From: Acidobacteriota bacterium
Lineage (GTDB): Bacteria; Acidobacteriota; CAIWXX01
Direction: 5' to 3'
Length of the DNA: 38,332 nt
Assembly (NCBI GenBank): GCA_016191015.1
Contig: JACPPM010000261.1
Coordinates: 1-38,332 of the forward strand
Of the stretch, positions 1 to 38,332 are shown in pieces (the first letter of the stretch is position 1; the number at the start of each line of letters is the position of its first letter). Both the position numbers and the translations under genes were made by a program. Below the pieces are notes generated by a model. The model was not told the DNA's origin. It ran no database searches and saw nothing but the letters and a program-made list of their open reading frames with translations.

Positions 1-337
1 CCTCTAAGGAAAGCAGGAGGAGAGGAATGCAGGAACGGAGCAGTCGCCTCGAACTGATCAGAGTGGCTCGGAAGAACGCTCTCACGCTCCACGCTCCAGG
101 CCCGCGAAGCGGGCCGGACGCTCTCACGCGCGGCTGAGACGCAACCTTTTTGGTTGCGGCTCAGCCGCGTTGGGAAGGCAGGAAGGGGGTCTGTTCTATG
201 CCACCTTGGGCCCCGGATGTGAACGCTTCGTTCCTGCATTCCTCCCTTCCTGCTTTCCTGAGAGGGGTACGGAAGGTCTCCCCCGCTCGAGACTTTTGCC
301 ATTGCGCGTCGACACTCAACTTCGTAGACACTAACGG
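1..337. repeat. Dispersed palindromic repeat, copy R1 (truncated by the window edge)
   Basis: GC-rich non-coding repeat with no convincing gene. Its left half matches the plus-strand arrangement of the copy at 35539-35806, and its right half matches the right half of the copy at 34449-34698. It is therefore close to palindromic around a hairpin near 130-175 (arms of the GCGGCTGAG / CTCAGCCGC type around an A/T-rich turn). The right end (about 310-337) carries the family end signature GTCTACGAAGTTGAGTG read on the minus strand, and it abuts the stop codon of the rhomboid gene. Short ORFs inside it are translations of the repeat and are not called as genes. Confidence 0.8.
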
Positions 338-34444: not shown

Positions 34445-34448
34445 ATGC

Positions 34449-34698
34449 CCTAACGCGGCGGAGCCGCAACCAAACAGGCAAGACTCATGCACGCTGCAAG
34501 ACCCTTCCGAGCACCTCTCAGGAAAGCAGGAAGTTAGGAAGGCAGGAAGGGGTCTGTTGGATGCCACCCTGAGCTCCCGAGATGACTGCTCCGTTCCTGC
34601 ATTGCTCCCTTCCTGCTTTCCTGAGAGGGGTTCGGAGGATCTCACCCACTCGAACGTTTTGCCATTCCGTGTGAGCACTCAACTTTTTAGACGCTAAG
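34449..34698. repeat. Dispersed palindromic repeat, copy R2
   Basis: A 250-base element. The left end opens with CCTAACGCGGCGGAGCCGC and the right end carries the family signature ACTCAACTTTTTAGACGCTAAG. Inside is a perfect 20-base inverted repeat (34514-34533 and 34609-34628), with further GGAAGGCAGGAAG words between the arms. The first 141 bases match copy R4 (38192-38332) with about six differences. It starts 4 bases after the hemD stop. ORFs within it are repeat translations. Confidence 0.9.
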
Positions 34699-34736
34699 TA
34701 GCGACCGGTTCGCCGGCAGAAACCCGAATGAGTCAC

Positions 34737-34765
34737 TTGAACATGATCCAAATGTGGTCTATTAT
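34737..34765 (+). promoter_or_regulatory. Promoter of the toxin-antitoxin operon
   Basis: TTGAAC (34737-34742) and TATTAT (34760-34765) with ideal 17-base spacing lie 24 bases before the antitoxin start codon. GATCC (34745-34749) and GGATC (34767-34771) form a short inverted repeat across the -10 region, a candidate operator for the autoregulation usual in this antitoxin family. Confidence 0.75.
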
Positions 34766-34788
34766 CGGATCTGAATTTGGAGGTAACG

Positions 34789-35082
34789 ATGAGGGCACTG
34801 CGCGTCTCGGAAGACATCGTTCCGGTGAGCCAGTTCAAGACGGAAGCGGCCGAGTGGTTGAAGCGCTGCGCTGCAACCGGGCAGGCGGTTGTCATCACTC
34901 AAAACGGGAAGCCCGCCGGCGTCCTGATTTCGCCCCGGGTCTTTGACGAGCTGACGGAGCTCAAGCGGTTTGTCGCCACGATTCAGGAAGGGCTCCAGGA
35001 TGCTGAAGCCGGTCGCCTCACGGATCACGCATCGGTCGTCTCCCAAGTCCGTCAACGGTATCGCCAACACCGGAGCCGATGA
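34789..35082 (+). CDS. Antitoxin of the Phd/YefM family
   Basis: Antitoxin of 97 residues that would bind the downstream toxin and repress its own promoter as a complex. Family signs: the N-terminal DNA-binding fold with VPVSQFKTEAAEWLKRCAATGQAVVITQNGKPAGVLI (about 11-47, cited in part), followed by VFDEL and a charged C-terminal tail for toxin binding. ATG 34789 has GGAGG at 34779-34783 with 5-base spacing; an in-frame TTG upstream is rejected because it would start on top of that site. The stop overlaps the toxin start as ATGA. Confidence 0.92.
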   Translation: MRALRVSEDIVPVSQFKTEAAEWLKRCAATGQAVVITQNGKPAGVLISPRVFDELTELKRFVATIQEGLQDAEAGRLTDHASVVSQVRQRYRQHRSR

Positions 35083-35441
35083 GCGCCCGGCGCCGGGGTC
35101 CAGCCAGAGCTCGATCCGGTGCTCAATCACCTCGCCGGGCACTCACAATCCGCTGGACGGATCGCGCTCGAAACGACCTTGTTGAGATTGGCGATTTCAT
35201 CGCCAGAGACAACCCTGACGCTGCTGCACGCTGGGTAGAGATGTTGATCAAGGCGGTGGAGCTGGCCAGCACCTTTCCGCCGAGCGGCCGCGTCGTTCCA
35301 GAGATCGATCGAGACGACATCCGTGAGATCATTCGCCACTCTTACCGAATCGTCTATCGAGTCAGCGCCGAGGCCATCGACGTCTTGACTGTATTCGAAG
35401 GCCACCGTCTGCTTCCAAAGGGAGCCGTTCCAGAAGATTGA
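35079..35441 (+). CDS. RelE/ParE-family toxin
   Basis: Toxin of 120 residues from the RelE/ParE superfamily; ParE-like members act on gyrase and RelE-like members cut mRNA, and the target is not decidable here. The core (from about residue 22) reads IRWTDRARNDLVEIGDFIA, with GRVVPEI, IREIIRHSYRIVYRV and VLTVFEGHR blocks typical of ParE-like proteins. The first 21 residues form an Arg-rich extension not usual in the family. No alternative start lies between them, so either the extension is real or the start has shifted. It overlaps the antitoxin stop by 4 bases. The module is flanked by inverted repeat copies R2 and R3. Confidence 0.88.
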   Translation: MSARRRGPARARSGAQSPRRALTIRWTDRARNDLVEIGDFIARDNPDAAARWVEMLIKAVELASTFPPSGRVVPEIDRDDIREIIRHSYRIVYRVSAEAIDVLTVFEGHRLLPKGAVPED

Positions 35442-35449
35442 GGAGATCT

Positions 35450-35542
35450 ATGAGCCTGCATCCCATCCTGGCCCCGGACCAAGTCATCGAGGAGCTGCGC
35501 GCCTCGCCCAAGATCACGGGCCTCACCGTCGGGGCCTATTGA
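35450..35542 (+). CDS. 30-residue ORF, probably the 5' remnant of a gene cut by repeat R3
   Basis: A short frame (starting MSLHPILAPDQ, ending TVGAY) with a good ribosome site (AGGAG, 5 bases before ATG 35450), 8 bases downstream of the toxin stop. Its stop codon lies in the first bases of repeat R3, whose end signature starts here. This suggests that the repeat interrupted a longer gene of the toxin-antitoxin operon and supplied the stop. I do not recognise the peptide. It could alternatively be a genuine tiny third gene of the operon. Confidence 0.4.
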   Translation: MSLHPILAPDQVIEELRASPKITGLTVGAY

Positions 35543-35806
35543 TGTCTAAGAAGTTGGGTGCTTCCACGAAATGGCAAGACTTTCGAGAGGGTGAAATCTT
35601 CCGGATTCCTCTCAGGAAAGCAGGAAGGGAGGAATGCAGGAACGGAGCGGTCGCCTCGGACGATCATGGTGGCTCGGAAAAACGCTCTCACCCCTTCGCT
35701 TCGCTCAAGGGCTCTGGCTCCACGCTCAAGGCGCGCGCAGCGCGCCGGACGCGCTCACGCGCGGCGGAGACGCAACCTCTTTGGTTTCGTCTCCGCCGCA
35801 TTGGGG
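35539..35806. repeat. Dispersed palindromic repeat, copy R3 (inverted relative to R2's right half)
   Basis: Opens with TTGATGTCTAAGAAGTTGGG, which matches the reverse complement of the right ends of R1 and R2. It continues with the CTCAGGAAAGCAGGAAGGGAG word and GGAATGCAGGAACGGAG, a GCGCGCAGCGCGC stretch, and a hairpin with perfect 12-base arms (35761-35772 and 35788-35799). ORFs inside (35539-35923) are repeat translations. A GAATCCGCGCGTAAG hairpin like that at 28681 lies just beyond it. Confidence 0.88.
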
Positions 35807-38191: not shown

Positions 38192-38332
38192 CCTAACGCG
38201 GCGGAGCCGCAACCAAACAGGCAAGACCCAGGCACGCTGCAAGACCTTTCCGAGCACCTCTCAGGAAGGCAGGAAGTTAGGAAGGCAGGAAGGGGTCTGT
38301 TCGATGCCACCCTGAGCTCCGGAGATGACTGC
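38192..38332. repeat. Dispersed palindromic repeat, copy R4 (runs off the window)
   Basis: Starts with the CCTAACGCGGCGGAGCCGC end and matches the first 141 bases of R2 (34449-34589), in the same orientation, with about six differences. It begins 42 bases after the stop of the small exported protein gene. The remaining part lies outside the window. Confidence 0.9.

Follow-up and report, generated by a model that had tools for sequence, protein, structure and literature searches.

The window analysed here, by which we mean the whole stretch of 38,332 nucleotides, carries hemN-hemA-hemC-hemD and, beyond hemD, a toxin-antitoxin (TA) gene pair lying between two repeats, R2 and R3 (Table 1). Both Pfam matches of the pair, PF02604 and PF05016, exceed their gathering scores. 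The antitoxin gene comes first, and the toxin gene overlaps its stop codon by 4 nt. Judged by its domains and gene order, the pair is a type II operon of the Phd/YefM and ParE/RelE families; set against known operons of this kind it has the same layout, the same short overlap and the expected Pfam matches, with nothing unusual about it. The short open reading frame that runs from behind the toxin gene into R3 is probably the start of a gene truncated by the insertion of R3, and no relative of it was found among the loci examined. On the other side, R2 starts 4 bp downstream of the hemD stop codon. Comparison of hemC/hemD synteny with G001, a sister-genus genome and the closest relative among the genomes compared, was uninformative because G001 has no hemC match despite being 98% complete.

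Table 1. Features of the TA locus and of the repeat copies in the window.
Feature	Position	Strand	Description
R1	1-334	.	R3-type piece 1-174 (-) abutting R2-type right half 175-334 (+)
R2	34449-34697	+	complete non-autonomous copy; nhmmer 34448-34697, E 1.5e-91
R2 left end	34449-34476	+	CCTAAC + hairpin GCGGC-GGA-GCCGC + AACCAAACA
R2 right end	34657-34697	+	TTTTGCC...ACTCAACTTTTTAGACGCTAA
Phd/YefM-family antitoxin	34789-35082	+	PF02604 E 2.4e-15; TIGR01552
ParE/RelE-family toxin	35079-35441	+	120 aa; PF05016 E 5.3e-19
30-codon ORF	35450-35542	+	after toxin gene; stop TGA supplied by R3 end
R3	35540-35805	-	complete copy, second subfamily; nhmmer 35805-35539, E 6.9e-38
R4	38192-38332	+	R2-type, cut by contig end; 93% identical to R2; nhmmer E 2.5e-49

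The original prediction described inverted copies of a repeat end facing each other across the TA segment. This arrangement is real, as indicated by facing arms at 34563-34692 and 35544-35673 (130 nt each, 84% complementary, 851 nt apart) and by profile search. The similarity had been placed in the ends only and is more extensive than that, since the entire element of ~250 bp matches. R2 and R3 are separated by 844 bp, both have intact ends, and R3 lies in the opposite orientation with its right end pointing toward the TA module. They belong to separate subfamilies whose left halves differ and whose right halves are ~84% alike; the R3-type subfamily also occurs at other sites of the same genome (for example L143, L127 and L136). 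R1 and R4, at the two extremities of the window, are members of the same family as R2 and R3, and the composite R1 appears to have arisen when one element landed inside another.

To place these copies in context, we searched the genome from which the window comes (G000; 6.43 Mb in 349 contigs). A first search with R2 returned 86 matching stretches, and among 447 first-look candidates 40 places scored 88–96% identity to R2; because of these, the similarity of R2 and R3 is far above chance. The exact left end was matched 112 times in this genome and 36 times in the sister genus, while the reversed pattern used as a control gave 0. In a 693-kb sample, made up of the window and of contigs mostly chosen regardless of the repeat, 58 copies were counted, a density of ~1 per 12 kb. 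The family comprises several hundred copies scattered in the genome, and it is dispersed in the sister genus as well. Searched against Rfam, the window gave no match above threshold, and only chance matches appeared up to E 1. Many contigs of this genome start or stop inside an element (e.g. C335, C37, C333, C322, C323 and C349); therefore, the repeat is probably one of the main reasons why the assembly is so fragmented, and its copies are undercounted.

The geometry of the locus had been taken to suggest a mobile or recombination-prone TA cassette, in which the module and its flanking inverted repeats move or recombine together like a composite transposon, e.g. TIME-COMP. Tn3-derived miniature elements (TIME) are reported to make such composites (TIME-COMP; PMC13367494), and the two inverted copies of the window, with intact ends and a short distance between them, resemble these in that two miniature elements surround unrelated genes. 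Our locus differs in that nothing ties the enclosed module to the repeats and in that the ends are not Tn3-like inverted repeats. The TA operon has a paralogue in its own genome (G000:C235; 85% nt identity) and two in the sister genus (G001:C8; ~76% nt identity, one with a truncated toxin). No element copy is present in the 20-kb stretch around the C235 paralogue or in G001:C8:1-20000; the closest G001 copy lies ~3 kb past the truncated module. Thus, modules free of the repeat, which had been named in advance as evidence against a cassette, exist in the same genome and in the sister genus, and the repeat itself occurs at hundreds of places without a TA module. Other close pairs of elements enclose unrelated open reading frames. 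The spacing is also ordinary at the observed density (Poisson 7%): 7 of 24 gaps between neighbouring copies are ≤1 kb, which makes the 844-bp gap unremarkable. Because of the repeat-free paralogues and this ordinary spacing, we rejected the TA operon as cargo of the element, and with R2 and R3 coming from different subfamilies as well, a cassette is very unlikely. If R2 and R3 recombined with each other, the TA segment could be inverted, but it would not be excised.

The other possibility raised in the original prediction, two independent insertions beside a module, is supported by the two subfamilies and by the intact ends of each copy. We consider it very probable that R2 and R3 are independent insertions of non-coding elements resembling miniature inverted-repeat transposable elements (MITEs), that the TA operon is a bystander, and that the elements depend on a putative transposase of ~510 aa described below.

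In copies from the window's genome, the left boundary reads CC(T/C)AAC and is followed by a small hairpin and then AACCAAA. The right end has the consensus TTTTGCC...TTAGACACTAA, and the right boundary reads ...GACACTA, after which no base is conserved. The CTA at this boundary is fixed in 28 copies selected by regular expression and in most of 42 complete copies, and none of the 42 showed conserved or duplicated flanking sequence. Terminal inverted repeats are lacking, as the left CCTAAC.. and the right ..CACTAA are not inverted copies of each other. Between these ends the bodies vary by subfamily, with lengths of 165, 173, 200–215, 240–249 and 262 bp; in the sister genus the ends are unchanged and the hairpin sequences differ.

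The left-end stem shows compensatory changes across 15 left ends, with 93% of cells paired. None of 500 shuffles scored as high for paired cells or for covariation, and sliding the partners abolished the signal, although these ends were picked for looking like left ends, so that the covariation supports the structure and does not alone prove it. Folded as single-stranded DNA, R2 is very stable (z -5.3). Among ~75 stretches of the window's genome we found no longer left-to-right unit with other cargo, and complete pairs of ends were all 165–262 bp apart. We also searched with the joined flanks of the 42 copies for empty sites; only noisy or nested cases appeared, and because no clean empty site was recovered, transposition was not directly sighted.

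Integron attC sites were rejected as an identity for the element. CTAA has the same orientation at both ends, so the R'' (RYYYAAC) and R' (GTTRRRY) boxes do not fit; additionally, right ends do not conserve the G of GTTRRRY, and the copies are dispersed and not arrayed.

The same left and right ends were also found to bound units of 1.6–1.7 kb containing one gene for a protein of ~510 residues. An exact scan of species genomes with the 25-base left end gave hits, among the matches listed, in Acidobacteria, Elusimicrobia, Planctomycetota, Thermodesulfobacteriota, Opitutae and Ignavibacteria; viral contigs held no exact left end. In both Elusimicrobia and Ignavibacteria the left end lies ~100 bp upstream of an open reading frame of ~505–515 aa, and these two proteins share ~32% identity. 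The 14 main-family genes we compared span Acidobacteriota, Elusimicrobia, Ignavibacteria and a Paraburkholderia plasmid. The left end is found upstream of 11 of them (10 by rule, and the variant L236 by eye) and is absent from the remaining 3 and from 6 of 6 distant members. By comparison, the motif appeared in 1 of 348 control windows and in 0 of 266 wrong-strand windows. A right end like those of the window follows the gene at L235, L247 and L202, matching the consensus of the window's genome at 26, 25 and 26 of 41 positions, respectively. Only 0–1 of 20,000 shuffles did as well, and the maximum among 468 control windows was 21/41. L183 and L236 have a seemingly different right end, GGTTAGTAGTAC.

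The strongest link between repeat and gene comes from a single genome, G073, which holds a gene-bearing unit of 1,677 bp (L235) and gene-less units of 148–152 bp (L254, L263 and L265, at 151–152 bp, and L268). The left ends of the gene-bearing and gene-less units match. When their 41-base right ends are compared with that of L254, the other gene-less units differ at 2, 4 and 9 positions and the gene-bearing L235 at 3. These units appear, from their shared ends, to be an autonomous/non-autonomous pair. A degraded copy of the gene in the sister genus (G001 L209) passes directly into a standard element body and right end.

The gene and the left-end motif tend to share genomes. The ~510-aa family is sporadic, occurring in 20 of 297 Acidobacteriota genomes, and the gene is present in 5 of 8 motif-positive genomes against 15 of 289 motif-negative ones (Fisher p 4e-5). 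In a sixth motif-positive genome (G007), a contig ends in an apparent start of the gene. The window's own genome has the main-family gene only as fragments (C18/C11 and C159), together with a distant family member, L210 (G000:C288:8402-9256), which is an open frame of 578 codons and has no left end. On plasmid pOLGA1 of Paraburkholderia phytofirmans OLGA172, the gene carries the annotation of an ArsR regulator; CCTAAGCCGGACGAGCCGGAACCAAACAGG lies 74 bp upstream of it and ACTTAACTCCTTAGCGACTAA lies downstream, the latter matching the consensus of the window's genome at 17 of 21 positions. Similarity to relatives of this plasmid ends at the neighbouring cytochrome gene, and no empty site was found among them. 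Distant relatives of the protein, mostly hypothetical proteins, occur on Rhodococcus, Mycobacterium and Caballeronia plasmids. No relative was found in phages, and viral contigs yielded two partial relatives.

These units bear on whether the elements might instead be structured repeats with a regulatory or terminator function, spread by recombination, with the ~510-aa gene as a frequent neighbour or passenger. The very stable fold of R2 would suit such a role, as would the other hairpins that adjoin many copies. The same ends, however, surround wholly different bodies, enclose gene-bearing and gene-less units in one genome (G073), and recur across several phyla as well as on a plasmid, all of which indicates end-specific mobility. 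Regulatory repeats are therefore a highly improbable account of the family. Most likely, R1–R4 are MITE-like elements carried along by a transposon family that is absent from the libraries searched (Pfam, NCBIfam, PHROG and PDB). Like MITEs, the elements are short, non-coding, present in high copy number and share ends with a gene-bearing element (G073). They differ from MITEs in having no terminal inverted repeats or evident target-site duplication, and from MITEs of known transposons in that the parental protein falls in no family of those libraries.

The search for a transposase acting on the repeat, as originally proposed, led to a strong candidate in the ~510-aa protein, which we infer to be a transposase from its place between the ends. 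Apart from a weak C-terminal winged helix, searches of Pfam, NCBIfam, PHROG and PDB returned no match for it. Its conserved residues include K308/H309 and Y319/D320 (L202 numbering). Ten proteins of the family contain no conserved H-x-H (the HUH motif), and comparison with the Y1 transposase profile revealed no similarity (hhalign probability 0.1%). An AlphaFold2 model built from four sequences had a mean pLDDT of 43, a quality that does not allow a catalytic class to be assigned. Nothing relevant to the family or to its end sequence was found in searches of the literature.

Hairpins at the ends would also be expected of REP- or BIME-like repeats that move by means of a Y1 (HUH) transposase such as those of IS200/IS605 or RAYT, and Y1 transposase genes are present both in the window's genome (n=5) and in the sister-genus genome (n=16). 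The Y1 genes on C187 and C137, however, have no element in the 15–20-kb stretches that surround them, and no Y1 gene examined is framed by copies or bounded by these ends. Most REPs are defined by GTAG or CGTC tags (PMC3733652), whereas our ends carry CTAAC/AACC. The elements are also 150–270 bp long with two different ends, rather than 20–40 bp, and the protein associated with the ends lacks both the motif and the profile similarity of Y1 enzymes. We regard mobilisation by Y1 transposases as very unlikely. Our elements share with IS200/IS605 and REP/RAYT systems an end hairpin, the lack of terminal inverted repeats and a short tag (CTA/CTAA here) at both element ends; the differences lie in the ~510-aa protein, with no HUH motif, and in the tag, which is neither GTAG nor CGTC.

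With a hairpin at one end, no terminal inverted repeats and no evident target duplication, the elements suggest a single-strand mechanism resembling that of IS200/IS605 with a different enzyme. The proposed recognition sites of the ~510-aa protein are the left-end hairpin and the TTAG-nnn-CTA right end; it would cut after CYYA/CTA at each end and would mobilise gene-less copies in trans. To the fuller proposal, that it is a transposase of a new enzymatic class that acts on these ends, probably via single-stranded DNA, that drives a multi-phylum family and that made hundreds of miniature elements in this acidobacterial family, we give an even chance.

While the TA module itself is ordinary, the repeat beside it leads to an apparent insertion-sequence family absent from the searched libraries, with defined ends and a gene-less set, that reaches several phyla including one Paraburkholderia plasmid. 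It also gives a likely origin for hairpin repeats that are common between genes and interrupt metagenome assemblies, and the ~510-aa protein, with no recognised fold or catalytic motif, is directly testable for transposition.

Lastly, a further dispersed hairpin, TGCTCATTCGA...TCGAATGAG or TGCTCGTCGCAGG..., often comes directly after a right end, as in the right flanks of L050, L056, L120, L147, L048, L145 and L173. This hairpin also occurs in the sister genus; it may be a target that the elements favour, or it may represent a second family of repeats.
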